A stretch of DNA of 64,000 bases from Amyelois transitella. Taxonomy: Eukaryota > Arthropoda > Insecta > Lepidoptera > Pyralidae. Below are positions 11,522-46,000 of the stretch, piece by piece. Location of the stretch: positions 1,907,501-1,971,500 of the forward strand of contig NC_083525.1 in assembly GCF_032362555.1 (NCBI RefSeq), read 5' to 3'. The notes beneath the pieces were generated by a model, which had not been told where the DNA came from, ran no database searches, and was given only the letters and a program-made list of their open reading frames with translations. Each line of letters begins with the position of its first letter. The first letter of the stretch is position 1. Position numbers and translations under genes: made by a program.

Positions 11522-12318
11522 ATACCTACCTTAGGTAAGATATCTACCATATAGGTACAACACTTTTCTCATCATCTTGCAGGCGTTAATTTTGGTTTGA
11601 TTCCTCCTGGTCTTGAGGAGCCACGGTTCTACCTGTGACCTCGGACCCAATCGAGTAGTCAGGTCCACAACATTTGCAGGAGAACCAAATAATCCAGGTG
11701 GCTCATCCAGCTGCCTGAATGTGCGGATCTACACGATTCTCTCTCATCTTAACGTAGGTGATCCCGACTGCATCGTTATAATAAGATGTAGGCGTCAAAA
11801 TACGGGGTCTACTCAAGGCTGGATAATCACTTAGAATTCCCTTTAGAATTTAGAGTCCCTGCTTGCCTATACTTACAATTACTATTGTAGCGGCCGTTCA
11901 GTTCCATGGACAAACACTCTTTGACTTGACAATTTAGATGACCAAAACTGACAAACTTATGAAAAAAAGGACAATCTACATCGACACTAAGACGAGACGA
12001 CGATAAGACGCACCTTGAACAGGCTAAATTCTGTTTAAATTCAGACACAGACAGACAGACAGACAACAGACCCTCGGCCCGTTCAACTCCTTGAACAGGC
12101 TAAATTCTGTTTAAATTCAGACACAGACAGACAGACAGACAACAGACCCTCGGCCCGTTCAACTATCTTTCAAGGAAGAGGTGGATAGCCGTCATTTGAG
12201 ACTGCGTGTAGCACCCACCTTCAACCTTCGGCTTTTTGCGCACTTGGGTCCTTTATTCTTCTAAAAGGGTTTCATCCTACTTATCGAAACAAATAAAATC
12301 ACAAAGAAAAATCAAACA
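11522..12318. other. Intergenic stretch with a 76-bp duplication
   Basis: No coding sequence seen. Contains the tandem duplication at 12013-12164 and a (CAGA)n run. Confidence 0.4.
12013..12164. repeat. Perfect 76-bp tandem duplication
   Basis: Two adjacent identical units starting ccttgaacaggctaaatt at 12013 and 12089, each with an internal (ACAG)n run. Complete identity implies a recent event. Confidence 0.95.
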
Positions 12319-12362: not shown

Positions 12363-15300
12363 TCATTGGGTACCCATGGATGACGCGTCTCTGAAAACAA
12401 AATATATTATTTAGATACGTGAATTTATTATTTTCCATCACAATTTCCTAATCGGAGCTCGAAGGCCTGGGCCTTCAAATTAAAAAAAAAGCTGAGAGCC
12501 CGCAATCTATTCGTAGATGTCGAAGTCTTCACATAAATAGCCAGCCCTTTCTTGCTTACAAATCGCAAACCATTCCCTCCTAACTTAAGCCTTGAAACAC
12601 CTTTTGATGTGAAAAACTTACTTCTCCTTAGATCTTTTGGCAGCAATCCTGTAGATCCTTCTCAGCTCTAACAAAGCCCTCATGATCACCACTAATTGCT
12701 GTTCGAAGTCCGACGGCTTCACATCAATAGTCAGCCCTTTCTGCTTACAGATCTTCGTGTATAAACTCCAAATGGCTGATTTAACGTGACAGAGTTCCAC
12801 ATGGCGCCTCGCAGCAGTCTCTTTCAGCCGGTTCAAGGCCAATTCCCATTTTATAACCCGGTTTCGGACTTTGTCGTAACGCCACTGTAATCAGGCCAAT
12901 TTATTTATTTATTTACCTATTAAATTCTACCTTACCTGGAGAGAAACATAAAATAAATTTTATAGAACAAATTACGCAGATTAGGTTTGCCTCGAAGTAG
13001 GTTCGAGACATGTTTTACGAGATGCTAACTGAACGTTATACAATACTTCATAATAAATACTCTATACAAGTAAGCGTCCAAGGCCCAAGCCAATCAGAAA
13101 AAAATATTTTTCCATGATAACTTAACTGGGTATAAACACGGGACCGTTTACTGACACTTAAAAACTGACTTCACCAAAAGTAGTGCAAATAAAATTCACG
13201 AAAAAAGAAAGCAAAGCGTTTCTTTGACGGTTTTCATTTACCCTCAAATTGGCCAGCGTGTTGTTCAGCCCCATGATGAAGAGCTTCTTCTCCTCGGTGA
13301 GATTCGCGATCTCCTGGCGAGCATTCTCCAGCATCTCCAAGTCTCGTTCCTGTCTCTCAGCCAACGTGCTCTTAGCAGCAGCTGGTACAACAATAATTTT
13401 ATAAGATTCTTCCATTCAAGTCAGACATCCACAGATCCACATCTCCGTGTTTGCAAACAAAAAAACATTTTTTGCTAAATGAACAAACGCCAATGTTCTG
13501 TGAGCCGGCATTAAATCGCGCTTCATCTCTTACTGCTGATATAGAAGTCAAACCCTCTGACAAAGTAGAATAAGTAACGACTAGAACAACCAGTACATGT
13601 TCGAGTTCTTTCCAGTAGATCTTTTTGATGACGATTTCATTCCAGTACCTATATTGCTTTCACTCTTTTGCGCTCCAAAGACATGTAGGGTTAGTGCTTG
13701 TGTTACTCGATCAAACATACAAATTCGTGTTAACCTGCAGTAAAACTTGCACTCAACTTAATGTCCTACCTATGTGAATAAATTATATTTTTTTTATACA
13801 AATCAATTCACCTTCTCACTTTAAAGTAAAAGCCTGAACATAGACCCAAAACTTTGGCCTTGTCTACTCATATTGTTGCTGAGCTCAACACTTACCTAAA
13901 GCCTCGTAGCGATTCAATACATCAAGGGGTTGCTTAAACTCCGGGTGACTGTGGACGACTGCCATCAGGTAATCCTAAGAAAAAACGCGACAAACAAAAC
14001 AGTTCTTGTTGTATTTTTTCCTTGATGTAATAAAAAATAAAGAGGTACAACTAGCTTTTAGCGGGACTTCGCTTCCATAGGAATTTCTAGAAATAAAAGT
14101 AGGTCGTACCTATGTAACTACTTGAGGTCATCTCATTTTGTTCCCAGTTACTCTGCCGGTATCCGCTAGGTACGAGTATGTGATTTCTTTATCTGTTTGG
14201 TCCGGTTTAGGACTTCGGACAAAACTTTATGAAAATCGGTCAGGAGAAATTAAAATTACAACATTTTTCCCATAGATAATATTACTGAATGTTTTAGATT
14301 GTTACCTTCCTACTAATGAGAGATTCTAACCTCGTATATAGTATAATCCTTGACTTGTTTCTCCATTAGAGCCTTGACTTCCTCCATCTCCAGTACCCTC
14401 TCCCTCATCGCGTCCGTCTCCCTGGTCTTCCTCTCTAATACTTCAGCGTCCGCCGCCATTTTACGCTCGGCGCGTTCGCGTTTCTCTTGGTTTTCTCTGA
14501 TGAACTGGAAAATAACTAGGGAAATAGTCACTTCTGCGTTTTTTTAGATCTACCATAATATATATGTTACAGTTACTAGTTAAACTAGTTTTAACTGTAA
14601 CATATATACTAAGTAAGAAGATAAAACAGCATTATATTATGGTTAGGGAAATCGTGAGTAAACTTCAGAAAAACTATATGTACCTATCCATTGGCGTAAT
14701 ATATACAGACGAGGGTGGGCAGCCGAGCCGTCCACTTTAGAACGGTCGGTCGCTGGCAAACTGTTATATTCAATATATAGCTTGCAACGTTATAAATTAT
14801 CTATTAAAATGATTTAGAAGTTAGGACTTAAGAAGAAGCCACAATCAACGCGGACTCTATCTCCTCCAGGAAGTGACGCAATCGGGCGGGACATACGCCT
14901 GATGGATAACGTAAATTTTGACAAATTCTTTTTCCTCATCAATTAGTCCTTATGTCTCTGGAGAAGAGACTGTTACTACGACTTTCAAGTCTTTAATGTG
15001 TTACATTTTGCGATTTACATCTGAATTTCTCAAGAAGAACCTTAACCGCTCGATCGCCGACCCTCTAGATATGAACCATACCTTGTTGAAGCTAATAAAC
15101 GACTCCTTTAACATCATCTCTTTCTGACGCAGCTCCTCCCACTTCGCGTCCATAATGACGCGGTTCTTTTGCTCCTCAACCCGCTTCAGCGCCAGTTTCT
15201 CGTCTGCATCCATCAGGTCTCGACGTGCCTGCTCCATCAGGACTTGGGGCGTGGGGCGGGCGACGTCCCATACTGGGTATTTTCTACCGTGTAAAAATAT

Positions 15301-15967
15301 GCAAAGATTATACTTCTTCCTACTGTGTTAATACAGGTTATGTCCTCCTTCACCTCTTCGGACCGGGGTGCGTCTTTTGAACATGATTCAGTTCCGAGAA
15401 AAACTATCGCGGATTCGTTTTTTCTTATGTCGTTAAAACGGGACAGCGATAGTTTATCGCGCGGGCAGGAGTGGTTGAATCAGGTTTTCAAACGAAGAGA
15501 CTCCTATTCTGGCGTCCGCAACCTAGCAGGGAAACACAACACATATTGGATAATGGTAAGATGAATATGCCTTTTCCCACTGGTTGCCTTATTAATGGAA
15601 TTATGTTTCAAATAGTGACAGTTGGCTAGCCCGTCGCCTTAAAAGAAAAATCCAAAGTTTATAAACCACTCACATGATTGGCTTTTATAATCTGCACAGT
15701 AACTAGGTAAGAGAAGCATCTCACACAAAATTTGTTATTATTCGCTACCAAATCGCCTGCTTATAATTGGGTGCCTATTCACTTAGTCGCCTTTTACGAA
15801 ATGGGACAGAGTGTTCCTGTTCTAAAGGCCGGGAAACAAAGAGCAATAGCTACTCACTTCACCATATTGGCGCTTTCCATCAACGATTTATAGTATTCCT
15901 CGGCACATTCCACCGGCGGCCCATGCGGGAGAGCGATTGGAGCAAGATCCTTCATTACTTTCTTCAT
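12363..15967 (-). CDS. CCDC42: CCDC42/CFAP73-family coiled-coil protein (DUF4200)
   Basis: Seven minus-strand exons: 15967-15858, 15283-15082, 14504-14331, 13974-13896, 13381-13242, 12884-12622 and 12390-12363; total 996 nt, 331 aa, close to the roughly 316 aa of vertebrate CCDC42. All splice phases agree. Residues about 50-300 form a highly charged coiled coil. Segments such as KRVEEQKNRVIMDAKWEELR, FIRENQEKRERAERK, DVLNRYEAL and KVRNRVIKWELALNRLKETA follow the order of the CCDC42/CFAP73 family, including the WEEL core, the FI-EN motif and the late V-WE motif. Members of this family act in cilia and sperm flagella; CFAP73 (MIA2) is tied to inner dynein arms and CCDC42 to sperm tail formation. 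Expression mainly in testis is inferred, not seen. It could be either CCDC42 or CFAP73. The ATG at 15967 is the first in frame. Confidence 0.82.
12945..13110 (-). mobile_element. tRNA-derived SINE, 3' part
   Basis: Resembles the body of the full copy at 36486-36742 (shared GCCTCGAAGTAGGTTCGAG-type segment), without the tRNA-like head. In the last-but-one intron region of the CCDC42-like gene. Confidence 0.6.
14560..14607. repeat. Inverted repeat, 48 bp
   Basis: Arms ATATATGTTACAGTTA and its reverse complement surround a second small palindrome around CTAGTTAAACTAG. Lies in an intron of the CCDC42-like gene. Confidence 0.9.
15600..15840 (-). mobile_element. SINE copy interrupted by unrelated sequence
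   Basis: Family segments at 15605-15660 and 15770-15838 are separated by about 110 bp not found in other copies here. In intron 1 of the CCDC42-like gene. Confidence 0.6.
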
Positions 15968-30165: not shown

Positions 30166-30982
30166 TCACAATAACTTCAAATGTCCCGTTACTTTATCAA
30201 TCACATCTTTAGGAGCTGGACCCACACCTAACACTGTTATTGAGTTCGGTGCTATCTGAGTTCTACCCGCATCCCTTATCAAAGAAGTTATGAGTCCCAT
30301 CTGTTTCGCATTATCGGCTATTTGTTTTATTTCTTCAACGGAGTCTATTTTAAGGGCAATCTTAGCTTGACCTGTCAGTTGCCAGCAGTTGAGTCCTTCA
30401 GGGTCTCGTGTCTGTGCCTTTTCGAATGCTCCGACAGCTGCATGACCACACTGAGCCGCAATTTTTCCTTTGCTCATATTCAAGTCAGTTCGAACAACCA
30501 ATACTAATTTGTACTCTGAATTTGAAGCGAACTGAAAAAAATGTTATTGCAACTTAACAAGAAGATCGACATTGATCATTTTTTCTTTGTAAAATTGAGA
30601 TGGGCCAGCAGACCACATATATAGGCTGAAATTTGGAATATTCTAAAATTAATTTTCATTGAGAAACATACAGTATATCTACTTAGTATTCTTATACAGA
30701 TGTGTGGAGAGGAAAGATTATGATTTGATAACATTATGTTTTGTGCGACTCCAGATATGTATAAGTTTAACTATATTGAATTAAATTGTCACTTTTAGCT
30801 TAACTGAAGTGCCGATTTTTATGATAATATACTTAATTGTATTACAAACTTAAATTTTATACCTTTTTGATTGCTTTTGCTGCTTTTGTGGCTGAACCAA
30901 AGTAATTTCTAATAGCAAAGAGGGATATTCCTAAACAAATTCCGCAGCCCAAGCCTGTTAGAAAAGATATGTTGATATCCAT
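30166..30982 (-). CDS. PTRH2: Peptidyl-tRNA hydrolase 2, mitochondrial (PTRH2/Bit1)
   Basis: Releases peptide from stalled peptidyl-tRNA by hydrolysing the ester bond; the animal protein sits at the mitochondrial outer membrane and also has a role in cell-death signalling (family knowledge). Two minus-strand exons: 30982-30863 (40 codons) and 30531-30166 (121 codons plus TGA), total 161 aa; vertebrate PTRH2 is about 179 aa. Exon 1 encodes MDINISFLTGLGCGICLGIS, a membrane anchor as in PTRH2. Exon 2 is the complete Pth2 domain. It includes the signature MSKGKIAAQCGHAAVGAFEK, ALKIDSVEEI, GLITSLIRDAGRTQIAPNS and the C-terminal TVLGVGPAP followed by a final LKLL. The intron is about 330 bp with normal AG/GT ends. 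Gene intact. Confidence 0.96.
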
Positions 30983-31453: not shown

Positions 31454-32411
31454 TGTAGCGGGAGCGATGATTCGGCTCGACCGCCATCAAAGGGAAGATC
31501 TTCCGCCAGGCTAGGTATTGTGCCTGGGGAACCGCGGCTCCGACGGTGTTGTGTCGGAGGTTGTATATATAGTTCCAATCCGTGAAATCTCTGAAATCGC
31601 GTCTTAGATACTTCGCTGCTATTGGTTGAGCGCTTCAATTTCTTCGCAATGATTGACATTAGTTGTTTGATTTGATGTTGTGACGAGTGGCGTAGAGATG
31701 TCGCCACAGTACTCCCCCCCAAGACCGGAGGTCTGAAGTCTTGAGATCGTGCTGTGCAATCTGTGCTTCAGTAGCTTGCAAGTGCCAGTTGTCTTCCAGT
31801 GAGTCGGAAGTTGCTCGAAGTCCTAGTGAGTCAGGAGTGAGCCGTAGCGTTGCTCGTAGTCTGCGGTGAGTCGAGACAGTAGAGAGCGAAGTCGACTTGT
31901 TGGCGCCGGTAGATATCGTGAGTAGAGCGGCCGTCGAAGAGATCCAGGCGTGGGCTGCTGTAGATACGTTGGTCGCTGAAGTCGAAGAGAGTGAGTGCGG
32001 GTGGAGGACAGGACCAGGAAGCTCGGTGAGTCGGCTGCGATGGACCTGCTGCGATACCCAAGTTGCTGGCTTGCTGTGAGACTGCTTGCAGAGCGAGGAG
32101 TGATGATGGTAAGGATTGGAGATGATGAAGAAGAAGGTTGCTTCCAATCACGTCGATGTAGCGGGAGCGATGATTCGACTCGACCGCCACCAAAGGGAAG
32201 ATCTTCCGCCAGGCTAGGTGTTATGCCTGGGGAACCGCGGCTCCCACGATGTTATGTCGGAGGTTGTATATATAGTTCCAATCCGTGAAATCTCTGAAAT
32301 CGCGTCTTAGATACTTCGCTGCTATTGGTTGAGCGCTTCAATTTCTTCGCAATGATTGACATTAGTTGTTTGATTTGATGTTGTGACGAGTGGCGTAGAG
32401 ATGTCGCCACA
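31454..32411 (-). mobile_element. TRIM-like element, copy 2, with two LTRs
   Basis: Two nearly identical 255-bp direct repeats (31454-31708, 32157-32411) flank a 448-bp interior. The interior has a polypurine tract (minus-strand TTGGGGGGGAG) beside the 3' LTR. The interior is about as long as in copy 1 and has no gag or pol. The primer-site region retains ATCACGTCG but lacks the last 8 nt before the LTR. AAATC lies left of the element and again 8 bp right of the second LTR. Confidence 0.85.
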
Positions 32412-34046: not shown

Positions 34047-37000
34047 ATGAATTATGAAGCTGACAGAGCCATGAATCAGAAGCGTTTGCGAATGGAGGGC
34101 GAGCCGGGTCATGTTGTGCAAGGAAATGGTTTACCGCTCAATTATATTGGTGAGTTTTTGAAGTGTTATTGGTAGTAAAAGGCGGGAAGAGTGCGCGATG
34201 AGTGCGCACTCGCGGTTAGCTCGATAAGGCGCCGATCGTGCGATGCTGTGTCGAACCATTTTTCCCGCACATATTTTGGATGAAAATCCGTGAAAGGCTT
34301 GTCTAGATCAGAACTTATAGTAAATATGCCATAAAGATTTTTATTTAGATTGTGTTTGTCTTAATAAATAGACAAACACAAGCAAATAATGCTTACTTTT
34401 GTACAATTACCTGAAAGATGTTCTGTTTTATGAGTAAACTTTTGTTATTTTATGTTCTACTTAAAATATTTGTTCCATCTCATCAATGTTTTAGGCCTAC
34501 AGGCAGTGCAATAAAATATTATTTTCCAATAAGGTAAAAAATATTGAGCTTGATCTGATTCTGAAAAATGTTTTTGTTTTAATTTCTAACTTTGAACTTG
34601 ATTTTGATGTATTTTTTTATTTATGGTTGAAGTTTGGGCAATATGATTCTTATTGGACTACTGGATAACTAAATGATAAAAAGTTATACTAAACCAATTT
34701 TGGGTGTTAATACATTCCTTTTGCCAACTCAACATAAAAAATTAAACCATTCTCTTTTAAAATTGTCTACTGTATAACCCGTAATCACTCTCACTTTAAT
34801 GTTTTATCAAATAATAATGGATATTCAAAAAAGAATACAGACAAACATACAAATGTTCCTCTTGCTTGTAGAATATTATGGATTTTACAATATTATTACT
34901 AAGAAGATGTGTTATAAACTAAGTAAAAGTTGTTTCATATTAGCTCTAGGTTCAACCTACCTACTTACTCGTTTGTCAGATGTTTGCTCAAATGTTAGGT
35001 AAAGTGAAATTAAATGGTACAAGGCCAAAATAATCTCAATAAAACAATTTTTTGGAATATAAACTGTTTTCCTGAAAGGGTAACAATTAAAATAGTGGGT
35101 TTGTTTGTTATATCTATATTAAACAGAGATATAAAATAGTTGGTATTACTATTCACTGATCATCTTACCTGTACCATATTCCCTAAAAAATTAGAGGTCC
35201 ATTCCAGTAATCATAGCATTGTTATTTGACCTTTGTTTCAACAGGGAAACTTAACAAAATTTTGTGCAGGTTTCATTATCTATCTACTAAAGCAGATTTT
35301 TCCTAATGTAATGTCCTTTAGTTAAAAATCTAGGCTTTGCCCATCCTTGCTAGGCCCAAGTAGAAGGTGCAGAGAGATAAATGTCAGTAAGCAGATGATA
35401 TAGGTCCCGCCAGGAGTCAAGAATTAAATGGTGTTGATTATACATGTACCATTGGAAAGAAAAATAAAAGTATTTTTAATTTAATAATATTTTTTTAATA
35501 TGATTTTATTTAACCAATATCACCTAATAGAGTGACACCTACTATATATAATGCTGTTTTCTGAATATATTAAAAACGATTTAACAACTACATACATAAA
35601 AAAAGGAACTAATAAACACTATGTACATACTTTTTACATTCCTGAACAATGCAATACATCAAAAAGGGAAACATTTATATGATCACCCATATTTATGGGG
35701 GCAACTGGGTGTGCGCGGGTAAAGGGAAGCAGGGTGCCGCTGCGTGGGCGCACTCGCCACGCATTTATGATGAAATGCTGCCTGCCCCTCAGACCCACCT
35801 CAATTTACACCTGTTATTCGTCTCTGCGCAGGTTTCTTGATTCGTGGCGACTATTATGCCTCGCACCAGCAATTGAGAACACAAACAATATTTAAGAGAG
35901 ATGTAATTTATATAAGTGCCGTGTGGTTTCCGGCGACTAAGGTATAGGGTTACAAACTTGGGACTCTTTTTTTAGGCTATGGGTTAGCGACCTGTCACTA
36001 TTTCAATCTCAATTCTATCATTAAGCCAAAAAGCTGAACGTGGCCATTCAGTCTTTTCAAGACTGTTGGCTCTGTCTACCCCGCAAGGGATATAGACGTG
36101 ACCATATGTATGTTTGTATGTGATCTATCTGTGTGTGATCTAATGAGAGACATTTTTGGACTCATCACGGACCTCTGCTATCGACTCTCCAACTCAATTC
36201 AAACTGAACATCATTCCTTCAATTCCAGACAATGGCCACCAAATCCCTTACCAGCCTTACGCGGGGGCTTACAACACGCACTACCCGCCTCCGGACGCGT
36301 TCGCGGCGTACGGCCCGCCGCCGCCCGGGGGCTACGCCCCTCAGAACCTGTCGTACGCGCCGCCCGCCCACCAGAACTACCCGCACCACCAGAGCTTCGC
36401 GCAGCAGCCCCAGCAGCTTCACATGCCGCAGACCCACATGGGTAAGTACTGTATGTATTGGCCAATTTTTTATATTTTTCCTCTTTAGGTTTTTTTTTTT
36501 TTTTTTTTATATACGGGACAAATTACACAGATTGAGTTAGCCTCGAAGTAAGTTCGAAACTTGTGTTACGAGATACTAACTCAACGATACTATATTTTAT
36601 AATAAATACGTATATAGATAAACATCCAAGACCCAGGCCAATCAGAGAAAGTTCGTTCCTCATCATGCCCTGGCCGGGATTCGAACCCGGGACCTCCGGT
36701 GACACAGACAAGCGCACTACCGCTGCGCCACAGAGGCCGTCAAAGGTTAAGATTCGATAGTTTAATTAGTTAGTTAGATGTGGTAGTTTGAGTTCAGAGG
36801 CGTTTTCGGGCTTATTATATCTTAACAGCATCCAATTAAAAGTCCTTAAGTGATTACTACTCAATTAGATAGATAGATAAAAGCTTTTTTCACTATCACA
36901 ATACATTTTGGACACATACCTAATTAACAGTAATAAACATGTGAATGTGCAATGTGCATGTATGTAACACGAACAATGATGGACACAGCATAATGTCGCA

Positions 37001-40000
37001 GGTGTAGACACCGCGACGCTGACGATTCTGCCGGAACCGTAGATGAGCTAATATAATGATAATTATCGGCTCCAGTTCACCAATGTCTGAAAAAATCAGT
37101 TTTGATCCGATTCCAATACGGTGGCTTACGAGTACTAATGATTCTTGATCTAGTAACTCACATGGTCGAATGAAGTATCGGCCAACATACATATAGTCAC
37201 CTCTATATCCCTTGCGGGGTAGATAGAGCCAACAGTCTTGAAAAGACTGAAAGGCCATGTTCAGCTACATTTATGGCTTTATGATGGAATTGAGATTCAA
37301 ATAGTGACAAAAAATAAAAGGAAGAACTGAGTGTCTTAGTTTCGTATCTCAACTGAATTAAAAAATCTATTTTGAATTTTCGAAATGCGAATGTAAGTTT
37401 GTATGTTTTTTTTTGTCTCTTCACGCGTTATCTACTAAACCAATCAACTTGCAATTTTACAAATATACAATTAATAGTCTGGAGAAGCAAATAGGTTACT
37501 TTAAAAACTATAGAATAACCTGTGTCTTCTTGTAGATGGCGCTAAATTCGCGCGGGCGAAACTGCGGCTAATATTATAGTAGTTAGTTGAGAATAAAGCT
37601 TGACTCCAAAGTGCTAATCAAGTCATCCTAAATTACACCTCTACTAAAGCCTTCAAAGGGTGTAAAAAAATCTGTGAATCTTTTGACTTCGCAATATATA
37701 TCTTTCCGCAGTCCAAGGATACCCGGACGTGGGTGTCCACAAGCCGGCGTGGCCTCCTCAGTCGCACCTGCTGCCACCATTGGACACACAGAAGCTGGAC
37801 GTGAAGCAGCTCAAGCCGGAGATCAAGTTGGAGCCCACCGACTCCCAGAAGAGACCGCATCCCGAAGCTGATATTATGGTAAGTCTGATATTCTAGAATT
37901 TTCCAAGATGTCTCCATTGTCACACCTGCTGCCACCGCTAGACACACAGAAGCTGGACGTGAAGCAGCTCAAGCCGGAGATCAAGTTGGAGCCCACCGAC
38001 TCGCAGAAGAGACCGCATCTCGAAGCTGATATTATGGTAAGTCTGATATTCTAGAGTTTTCCAAGATGTCTCCATTGTCACACCTGCTGCCACCGCTGGA
38101 CACACAGAAGCTGGACGTGAAGCAGCTCAAGCCGGAGATCAAGTTGGAGCCCACCGACTCGCAGAAGAGACCGCATCCCGAAGCTGATATTATGGTAAGT
38201 CTAATATTCTAGAAGTTTCCAAGATGTCTCCGCAGTCGCACCTGCTGCCACCATTGGACACACAGAAGCTGGACGTGAAGCAGCTCAAGCCGGAGATCAA
38301 GTTGGAGCCCACCGACTCGCAGAAGAGACCGCATCCCGAAGCTGATATTATGGTAAGTCTGATATTCTAGAGTTTTCCAAGATGTCTCCATTGTCACACC
38401 TGCTGCCACCGCTGGACACACAGAAGCTGGACGTGAAGCAGCTCAAGCCGGAGATCAAGTTGGAGCCCTCCGACTCGCAGAAGAGACCGCATCCCGAAGC
38501 TGATATTATGGTAAGTCTATTATTCTAGAAGTTTCCAAGATGTCTCTGCAGTCACACCTGCTGCCACCGCTGGACACACAGAAGCTGGACGTGAAGCAGC
38601 TCAAGCCGGAGATCAAGTTGGAGCCCACCGACTCGCAGAAGAGACCGCATCCCGAAGCTGATATTATGGTAAGTCTGATATTCTAGAATTTTCCAAAATG
38701 TCTCCATTGTCACACCTGCTGCCACCGCTGGACACACAGAAACTGGTCATGAAGGTGTAACATATATACATATATAATATCTGTGGAAGACTGAAGATGG
38801 TAAGGATTGATGATGAAGAAGGTTGCTTGCAATCACGTCGGGGTCACCACTAGTGGAATCGATGATTATGACCGCCATAAAAGGGAAGATCTTCCGCCAA
38901 GCTTGGTGTTGTGTCTGGGGAACCGCCAAAACTTGCCACCAGACCGGACTAGACAACCAGGAACACGTCAAGATTGAGCGGGGTAGACTAAGCCAACAGG
39001 TCATGGTCAGAATATTGGGATTCAAATAGTGAAAGGTGCTAGTTCATCACCTAAAAGAAGAATCACAAGTTTGTTAGCCTTTCCCTTGATCACCTTTAAC
39101 GACATACATGGGAAACTTATAGAGTGATCTGATTCCAAAGTGATGTACACGGATGACACAAAGAAGGCATTTTAAATTAAGATTATTTTTGTGGAAGCAA
39201 CAACCGACTTCTAAATGAAGAGTGTAACGTTTTCTATGTAGCCTGTCGTTTATTCATTAATCTTTGTTTATGCAAAAAAAGCGAATGCTTCATCACGATT
39301 GTAATTCGGCAGGGTGGTGACCTGGACCAGCCCAAGATCAAAATCAAGACGGACATCTTCAAGCCTGACGACCTGGCCCACAGACCCGCCGCAGACAAGC
39401 CTATTGGTAAGCAATGCTAGATATAATTTTATTTTTTATTAATGAATTAAAACAAAAAGAGAAATCAATTGTTTGGTATAATAACTTAAATAACAAATTA
39501 AAACAGCATAACAATGTCTATCTCGTTCACATTTTTTTTCTAATTCTAAGTTTGGCCTATTGTTGACGTTATTGAAGAAAATGTTGCAGTGCAGTTTGTT
39601 ACCGTCGCTTCAGCATCAGCTGACGTTATGGAAGCGGCAGTAAAATTAGTTTTAAGTAATTTATTTGAAGTCAACCAATGTTGTGAAACGAAAAGATATG
39701 GCAATTATTCAGTGATTTTCGAAGTTTCTCGTAATAATTAATAACAATTTTGAATTTGAATTCGAATTTGCAAGCCAAATGCAGAGAGTTATGAATGTGG
39801 ACGAAGCGAAAGAAGTATACAGAGATCGTGGCAAGTGGAAAGATGTAGTCTCTGTCTACCGCTCCGGGTAAAAGGCGTGATTTTATGTATGTATGTATTT
39901 GCAAGCCAATCATATAAAACAAGTGGGGTTCCCACACGTGAATTAAAATTCAATTATGAATTAAAAATGTGAATGTTCGTAATGTACAAGAACATAGGTA

Positions 40001-43000: not shown

Positions 43001-46000
43001 TCTATAAATCTTTATTAGTAGCTATCGACCTACCTAACTTACCTTGGAATCGAGGACGTCCTGGTGGTCAGGTCAGGTCAGGTCAATTGTACCCGAAATT
43101 GAAAAACTCGCATAAAGAGAGTTATTGGGGTTTAACGGAAGAATTACGCAGGGGTCGTGGTAAATGGGTAGTTTTAGTGTATCTCTGGAAAAGAGACGTG
43201 ATTATGTATGTAATTTTTGTTTTCTAAATAAAATGAATAATTTTATTCTATACAATTAAACGATATATATACTACGTATATCCCGTGTGAAAAACCCTTA
43301 TCAATTAAAATTCATTCCTTCTCATCCAGCCCTGAAGATCGGAAACCGTTCAGCAGTCCAGACCTGAGTAAGCCCGCGTCCACACCGGGCAAAACACCCA
43401 CCCCGGGCTCTGAGGTGAGTGTGAGTAGACCTTTATATGTCCATCGGGCTACATTCACTGTCTCCCTTCCGAAATACACGGACGGGATTATTTTTATATG
43501 TGTTTTCTCTTACAGATTTACGAACAATTTTGAATATAGAATATTATTTGTAATTTAAATCCATAGACTTCGGAATAACATAAAATAATAGAAGTGGCAA
43601 GTACTTGTTAATGTGACGTCGTAATCGATGTTTGATACATAAGGTTTATTTTTAATGATTTATAACTGCGTGTGACGAAGGACTACGATACAATATTCCT
43701 ATAGTATCAAGTATAAAATGGCATTTCTATTGGCTTCTATTATTCCGATTTCTACGTGTGAAGCAAACATTGTTCAACGACATATGAATTAAGCAAATCT
43801 TCTATGTGATTTTTTTACGTTTTCAGCAATCGACGAGTTAAAAAAAAGCATATCATTATATAATTAACAAGATATCTTATTAATCATGTACACAGCCAAT
43901 GCCTTTCTTTCCCTGTCGTGGGCCTGCTGGAAGAAATTTCTCTAGAAATAAGTAGTGCACTTGTACAAAATTTATCTTTAGTTTAAGTTCTATTCTTATT
44001 TAATCCTCAATGTATATAAATATATATAAAAAAACAATAGCTTGGCGGAACCTAGCACCTAAACCAGGTCTTGCCTGTATTTTGGGGACTATGTCCGTCC
44101 GATTAGTTCCGTCCACCAGGCAAATTCACTGAAGCTAATGCTAATAACACATGTTTATCATTTATATAATCCTCCGTGCTGTAATAGGCTTTCCTACAAA
44201 GCTCATCTTTAATGTACTTTTTGCATTTTCATTCATTCATTTCAAGAACACTTCATGGTAATTTGTTAGAAAATCTTATACATACAATTAATCAAAAATG
44301 ATTTCCCTACCTTAGCCAGCCGATGTGCTGGGATCAACAACTTATAATTGTTCCGCAGTGATCTACTAGTACATTCACCTGCTCTTTTGAAAGAGTCTAA
44401 AGTGTTAAGTTTTTCCTAACATGCATAATGTTATGGAATATGTATTGGGAGGGCAACGTTAAAATATTTAGGTTCTTGAAAAATTCTCTAAGCGAATCTC
44501 TTTACTTTAGACCGTAGATAGCTCGAATTGCCCTTTTTTGTAGAATTAAAATATTTTTCAAAATAACTAAAATATACTAGCTTAGCAGTTGTCACATCCG
44601 TCAAATACGACGAATAGCGTATGCTGCAGAACTAAGCCGTATAGAAAGTTTCAAAATGTGAGCATGCCATTTCAAATTTGAATCTAATGTTTTTCCTAAG
44701 AAAGTAGAACTATCAACAAAATCTAATCTTTTACTACTTATATGCAAATAACGCGACGCCAGTCTGTTTCTCAATCATGCAAGGCAGGTCGTTAATATGT
44801 ATATACCAGAAAGAGAAAAGGTCCCAAAATGGAACCTTGCGGTACCCCTATTTATACCTTAGCTCCTTTCGATTTTGTATTATTTAAATCTACCGTTCAT
44901 TATTATAGATTGTTGATTATTCTATATAAAGAAAAATAATAATAATAAAATACAGTTTATTTCTGCGATTTTTGTTTTTTTTTTCATGTAAATATACACG
45001 TACTTACCTTTATATTGTCGACACGATAATGTCTAACATGGCCACGGTCGCGTATATCGATTAGTGCCAGCAACGCCTCGGTGTCAATTTATAATATTCA
45101 ATTTTAAATGTTTATTGCATATCATATACAGAAAATCAGTTGAATAACACTTACTGCTCATAAGTAGACACAAAGCGAACCTTGTCGGGCATCGCAATTT
45201 TAAAGTAAAACGCCTCACACAAGTCCGCCTAACAACAGCCGAAGAAGCGCGGGCGGCCTAAAGGCTCGACGAACAAGCCGAAGCCGCCGGGCACGCCGCC
45301 GCGCGCGCCCGCGCCCGGCCCCGCCGCGGCCCGCGCGCCCCCGCCGCGCGCCCCGCCCGCGCCCGCGCGCCCCCGCGCCCCCGGCTACCAGTACGCCGTC
45401 AGGCCCTTCAGGAAGGACTTCTCCGGGATACAGTTTAGAAGGTGAGGGGATTTTGTTTTGGTTGGTATGGCAAGATTCATGTACCTTTATGCACGGTAAT
45501 CCCACTGGATTGTTTTGATATCTCGTTAAATGATTTAATTGAATCGTGCGAAGGCTAGTCCTATGTCTTTTGTTTTTCCTGTTTTTGTCTGTTATTAAGT
45601 AATTTAATTTAATAACATTACATTTCGATGATGTGTGATCAAAATTATCAATTTTCTAACAATTTTACTAACCACAAAATATCTTTTTAGTGATTTTATC
45701 GCAAATCACGTTTATATGAAATCTTTAGCGCCCCTGTACGCGTCTTAAATGTCAGTTGATCTGAGACAGCTTCGTAACTTAATGTTTTGAAAAATTCTTT
45801 TTTTTTATTCAAACAAAAATTATATAAAAATTACTAACTCCCAATATCTCTGTAATAGCTTTTGAAAGGTAATCAATAGTGTAATATTTTTATTAGTCAA
45901 GTAAAAATTTAAAAAAAAATCGAAAATGACGTCTAAGTTCTCTATCCAACCGACTGCATTTATTTTCTTGTAAAATCCCTCAAGGCGATGGAGCGACGAT

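Follow-up and report, generated by a model that had tools for sequence, protein, structure and literature searches.

Tandem copies of an exon end that lie inside the next intron of the same gene raise the question of whether they are spliced into the mRNA and lengthen the protein, or are removed with the intron that carries them. We address this question for an array found in a 64,000-nucleotide stretch of the Amyelois transitella genome (NC_083525.1, positions 1,907,501 to 1,971,500 of the forward strand), referred to as the window, in which all positions are counted from the first letter.

Host gene and array anatomy

The host gene model, hand-built and RNA-free from open frames and GT/AG sites, has 14 coding exons of 45-217 nt between 34047 and 50630 and encodes 623 aa, with consistent phases and no internal stop. 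Exons 12-14 presumably resemble HIRIP3. The HIRIP3-like identity proposed for this gene in an earlier note drew no confirmation from Pfam or PDB searches: no Pfam family matched the whole 623-aa protein at E up to 1 or three pieces of it at E up to 10 (Pfam may lack a CHZ model), and PDB returned one chance-level match to an unrelated protein (E 0.74) for the protein and no match for its C-terminal piece. A GC-rich low-complexity tandem repeat lies within coding exon 9 of the model (45294-45383), and a tRNA-His-like sequence with a GTG anticodon (Rfam tRNA, 39.5 bits) lies in intron 2 on the minus strand, antisense to the gene (36666-36737). Elsewhere on the minus strand of the window, a PTH2 (Peptidyl-tRNA hydrolase) domain was found at 30169-30543 (Pfam E 9.4e-47), and consecutive parts of the DUF4200 profile match 14316-14543 and 15004-15327, the second piece just below the Pfam cut-off (29.6 vs 29.7); the two pieces are probably exons of one gene. 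The features from exon 3 to exon 4 are as follows.

37712 to 37878, plus strand: exon 3, 167 nt, starts in phase 1 and ends in phase 0
37750 to 37907, plus strand: unit 1, the end of exon 3 with the true donor after 37878 and the first 29 nt of intron 3
37908 to 38065, plus strand: copy 2, donor after 38036, AAG/ATG before 37908, P-to-L
38066 to 38223, plus strand: copy 3, donor after 38194, CTAAT in the spacer (A at 38204)
38224 to 38381, plus strand: copy 4, candidate cassette exon 38236-38352, 117 nt, phase 0-0
38382 to 38539, plus strand: copy 5, donor after 38510, encodes IKLEPSD
38540 to 38697, plus strand: copy 6, candidate cassette exon 38552-38668, 117 nt, phase 0-0
38698 to 38757, plus strand: partial copy 7, no donor, AAA/ATG
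38786 to 38926, plus strand: dispersed-repeat fragment, 77% identical to window positions 32095-32238
39014 to 39135, plus strand: dispersed repeat that we take to be SINE-like, about 20 other matches in the window
39313 to 39406, plus strand: exon 4, starts in phase 0, acceptor predicted to join exon 3

Tandem Repeats Finder places a 158-bp array at 37761-38754 (6.3 copies, 94% matches, 0% indels), in agreement with the earlier description of exon 3 followed by five more copies and a partial seventh, which is donorless. The repeat unit combines the exon 3 end, the donor and the opening bases of intron 3, and indels are absent among the copies across both the exon end and the adjoining intron bases. 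Six identical ATTATG/GTAAGT donors follow one another in exact 158-base steps, with the final exon base before each GTAAGT at 37878, 38036, 38194, 38352, 38510 and 38668, as expected from the period without drift that had been reported. The 3' part of exon 3 constitutes copy 1, and copies 2-7 all lie within intron 3 (37879-39312; 1434 nt), together with the dispersed-repeat fragment and the SINE-like piece; the gene holds tandem copies of one of its own exons, and the copied portion is only the 3' part of that exon. From each donor to the next acceptor-like site, the gap is 29 nt for an AAG site, which is the spacer length given previously, and 41 nt for a CAG site, for which that length does not hold.

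Comparison of the array with itself gives 94-96% identity across matches of 206-836 bases, ending with a 46-base match at 87% between copies 1 and 7, a self-similarity far beyond chance. Pairwise differences among copies 1-6 number 2-14 per 158 bases, and no two copies are identical: copies 3 and 5 differ at 2 bases, copies 1 and 4 at 6, and copy 1 differs from each of copies 2, 3, 5 and 6 at 10-14. Copy 7 carries three changes immediately before it breaks off, and the array ends inside this copy about 29 bases short of the dispersed-repeat fragment, suggestive of subsequent loss or rearrangement at this end. Dispersed-repeat pieces at 39014-39135 and 37184-37309 have many more matches on both strands of the window, and the repeats give the genome a lepidopteran look. 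Two other tandem arrays with a period above 50 are present, at 150-530 (97 bp x 4, 94% matches) and 12013-12164 (76 bp x 2, 100%), both outside this gene. A search for relatives gave 11 pattern stretches in viral contigs and 104 in prokaryotic genome contigs, none confirmed; as the two collections consist of viruses and prokaryotes, this absence says little.

Splice sites, coding outcomes and SUMO-type motifs

Acceptors were scored with two matrices built from the gene's own 13 acceptors, one with positions -20 to -5 pooled and the other with each position separate, and were compared with 673 decoy AGs and with the true sites, each of the 13 left out in turn. With the pooled matrix, the CAG of copy 4 scores 6.1 (30/673 decoys as high, 4/13 true sites the same or lower) and the CAG of copy 6 scores 6.3 (26/673 decoys, 5/13 true sites); the exon 4 acceptor, itself among the sites building the matrix, scores 7.0, and the CAG inside exon 3 itself scores -1.3. 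AAG/ATG sites, reported earlier for all copies, are found in copies 2-6, where they score 2.8-4.5 with the same matrix (51-116/673 decoys as high); copy 1 is without one and copy 7 reads AAA/ATG. With the unpooled matrix, the AAG site of copy 2 scores 3.5, and the other four AAG sites, like both CAG sites, lie at or below zero. Acceptor-like sites in the extra copies are, by the pooled matrix, moderate CAG sites in two copies and weak AAG sites in five, with lower scores when unpooled, and their strength is uncertain because there are only thirteen training sites. A branch-like CTAAT word (A at 38204) stands 31 nt before the end of the copy 4 CAG, and no CTRAY match occurs at the -32 position before the CAG of copy 6. 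Donors are supplied by the duplicated segment in 5/6 extra copies and score 11.3 bits, identical to the true exon 3 donor, which is itself one of the 13 donors in the scoring set; the best of these 13 reaches 11.7.

The coding outcome of each splice choice can be read directly from the gene model. Exons of 117 nt in phase 0-0 had been proposed for copies 4 and 6, and 38236-38352 and 38552-38668 bear this out: either one inserted after exon 3 gives 662 aa, in frame, with 2 LKPEIKLEP segments, and both together give 701 aa, in frame, with 3 such segments. An insertion of copy 3 through its AAG site yields 666 aa, and one of copies 3 and 5 yields 709 aa. Replacement of exon 3 leads to a stop after 141 aa (copy 4) or 145 aa (copy 3), use of any of the five distal donors or retention of intron 3 to a stop after 166 aa, and skipping of exon 3 to a stop after 107 aa. 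Since the substitution, distal-donor and retention outcomes all stop early, copies can only be added. Mutually exclusive exon use was rejected on the frame break that follows when copy 4 or 3 substitutes for exon 3; these two copies were the ones run, and the remaining copies share their start phase. Because the copies start in phase 0 whereas exon 2 finishes in phase 1, none can take the place of exon 3.

If introns must span at least 50 nt, a minimum of our own choosing, there are 8 possible copy sets including none, and at most two copies are added. Predicted introns measure 357 nt (copy 1 to 4), 199 nt (4 to 6), 673 nt (1 to 6) and 644 nt (6 to exon 4). Direct neighbours had been judged too close to splice. 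We take a branch A only 10 nt from the donor to be too close for splicing, and the branch-like A in the copy 3 spacer lies at that distance from the copy 3 donor. The 3-to-4 and 5-to-6 introns, at 41 nt, nevertheless exceed the 34-nt minimum that a table of full-length B. mori cDNAs gives for introns (median 730 nt; PMC3755909).

One IKLEPTD segment per copy had been expected. Each full copy carries two SUMO-type motifs (LKPE and IKLE), copy 5 reads IKLEPSD, and copy 2 has HLEAD where the others have HPEAD (P-to-L). In the protein, four clustered sites, LKPE (139), IKLE (143), IKTD (172) and FKPD (177), fit the SUMO substrate consensus of hydrophobic-K-x-E/D, attachment being only predicted. 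In a shuffle test run after the cluster was noticed, four motifs within 42 residues arose in 0/20,000 protein shuffles, four or more motifs anywhere in 2.8% of 20,000, and two strict sites within 4 residues in 0.01%. This motif cluster belongs to exons 3 and 4 irrespective of any use of the copies, and the SUMO observation is somewhat stronger than the earlier note stated. The main text of a paper on human HIRIP3 is without mention of SUMO (PMC10854748).

Variation among the copies and competing explanations

Seven sites vary across the 117-nt exon part of copies 1-6, of which 5/7 are synonymous and 2/7 change an amino acid (T-to-S in copy 5 and P-to-L in copy 2, each in a single copy). Against 80 silent of 351 possible changes, the synonymous excess has a binomial p of 0.0085; three of the silent changes are linked, occurring together in copies 1 and 4, and with these collapsed to one, 3/5 are silent (p 0.08). 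Variation is lower in the exon part than in the spacer, at 6/117 vs 5/29 sites in copies 2-6 (Fisher p 0.042) and 7/117 vs 5/29 in copies 1-6 (p 0.062). All these counts exclude the 12 bases that precede the 117-nt part, which have four variable sites among copies 2-6 and a further three seen in copy 1 alone. Six random changes would avoid any stop with a chance of 0.76, so the intact frames say little. These figures hint at constraint, or at recent conversion from exon 3, but do not prove either. A 316-base higher-order unit of two copies was considered and not established: among copies 2-6, mean differences are 5.33 at lag 2 vs 8.5 at lag 1 and 10% of 120 orderings do as well, and among copies 1-6 they are 7.0 at lag 2, 9.4 at lag 1 and 6.67 at lag 3, with 14% of 720 orderings doing as well.

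A scan of both strands places the sequence TCCGCAGTC at just two positions in the window, 37705 and 38229. The true exon 3 acceptor matches the copy 4 CAG at 11/14 bases, which is equalled by 0.22% of 1387 CAG sites, and the alternative of an exonic origin gives 9/14 (3.5% of CAG sites); the comparison was made after the sequence was seen, and over 20-25 bases support for an acceptor origin fades to 4.3-8.6%. It is possible that the copy 4 CAG came from the true exon 3 acceptor, via a deletion between two CAGTC words in exon 3. A CAG codon also stands at the same place in copy 1, inside exon 3, so copies 4 and 6 may have inherited their CAG as a glutamine codon.

We consider it probable that a module of exon end plus donor underwent a recent and largely neutral tandem duplication, and that the resulting array is normally removed with the intron. 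We infer that the duplication took in the last ~117-125 nt of exon 3, the donor and ~30 nt from the start of intron 3, and that this segment would then have expanded via unequal exchange or gene conversion, all within intron 3. The usual transcript would join donor 1 (37878) to the exon 4 acceptor (39313) and remove the array in the 1434-nt intron; the array itself would be near neutral, with occasional inclusion of copy 4 and/or 6 as splicing noise. In the in-frame 14-exon model, the array stands 3' of the intact exon 3 donor and 5' of the intact exon 4 acceptor. Its edge copies, copy 7 and copy 1 (the latter though only 6 differences from copy 4), are the most divergent, as expected if the inner copies homogenise one another. 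Given the low divergence and the two other arrays of the window outside the gene's exons, recent neutral amplification, one of two readings offered earlier, fits at least as well as the other, a device for varying modification sites. Against neutrality stand the predominance of synonymous sites and the lower variability of the exon part in copies 2-6. Silence of the array is also not guaranteed, because the acceptors of copies 4 and 6 look workable by one of the two scorings and the donors are identical to the true one, and low-level inclusion of either or both, each adding 39 aa with two SUMO-type motifs, is possible.

That copies 4 and/or 6 are working cassette exons, with 1-to-4, 1-to-6 or 1-to-4-to-6 splicing adding 39 or 78 aa, seems to us rather unlikely. 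LKPEIKLEP segments would then rise from one to two or three, and the number of SUMO-type sites would vary by splicing. Frame is kept in both the 662- and 701-aa products, the predicted introns are of 199 to 673 nt, the CAG acceptors exceed ~95% of the 673 decoy AGs with the pooled matrix, copy 4 has its upstream CTAAT, and the cluster of four motifs in 42 residues was matched by none of the shuffles; human duplicated exons of higher identity also had more junction split reads (PMC9013439). Set against this, neither CAG site rises above zero with the unpooled matrix, a CAG is found only in copies 4 and 6 among the extra copies and may be the inherited glutamine codon, the selection signal is weak, and copy 6 is without a branch-like match nearest the site. 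A broader form of the proposal, in which the array is a variable-length coding cassette, is unlikely: the short spacing would forbid neighbour joins, only non-adjacent copies would be usable, giving 1-3 SUMO-site segments, with copy number in the population setting the combinations. The anatomy allows the suggested device for varying modification sites only narrowly, as the addition of up to two copies (introns of at least 50 nt), and nothing in the sequence demonstrates such use: the acceptors are moderate and scoring-dependent and the selection tests weak.

The extra donors might instead act on exon 3 itself, so that distal donor use or retention of the array yields truncated, unproductive mRNA by which expression is lowered or tuned. 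All five distal donors and full retention of intron 3 do lead to the stop after 166 aa, and the copied donors equal the true one at 11.3 bits (best of 13, 11.7), but such use needs exons of 325-957 nt in a gene model whose exons are 45-217 nt, and we regard it as quite improbable. Tandem arrays are a known assembly hazard, and a single copy in the animal could in general be multiplied by an assembler, though nothing here points to an artefact; stuttering of one sequence would not give copies 1-6 that mutually differ by 2-14/158 bases. With every full copy distinct, assembly stutter is highly improbable.

Relation to known systems

Tandem exon duplications are common; PMC9013439 quotes a 2002 study that put them at about 10% of animal genes. 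The array resembles these in that homologous exon copies adjoin in the same gene and may be unannotated and spliced (PMC9013439), and differs in that only the 3' part of the exon and its donor are copied, several times over, with donor-to-acceptor-like gaps of 29-41 nt, and in that the frame breaks when copy 3 or 4 replaces exon 3. Mutually exclusive exon clusters, such as that of Dscam1 and others, likewise consist of homologous exon units that arose by tandem duplication (PMC9013439), whereas here the phase mismatch prevents a copy from replacing exon 3. Recurrent exon duplication near a dispersed repeat is also known from the Drosophila hydra gene, in which initial exons were duplicated beside DINE-1, seven of the copies being flanked by it and four or more capable of acting as transcription start sites (PMC9013439); in the present array, an internal exon end is copied and a repeat fragment is found only after the last copy.

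A potato RdRp gene is alike in that tandem copying across an exon-intron boundary carries splice signals along (PMC4974935). There, the 3' end of an intron and the start of the next exon are present in two copies (PMC4974935), whereas here an exon end and donor are present in 6.3 copies and intron gain is only hypothetical. In fission yeast, 24-bp AGGT arrays have an intron across two or four duplicates, as cited in PMC4974935. Among the open-licence papers listed, no match to a partial-exon, donor-bearing tandem array was recognised, and open-licence searches found nothing on HIRIP3 in Lepidoptera or on partial exon duplication.

The array can be viewed as an exon-end tandem duplication caught young, at a stage when donors, candidate acceptors and reading frames can all still be made out. 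Should copies be included in the mRNA, it would show a simple way in which a repeat in DNA can give rise to a protein whose modification sites vary in number; if they are not, it is a clean example of splice-site-bearing repeats tolerated in introns. In either case, tandem duplication across exon boundaries is seen here in a partial-exon, donor-bearing form whose copies outnumber those of the potato gene.
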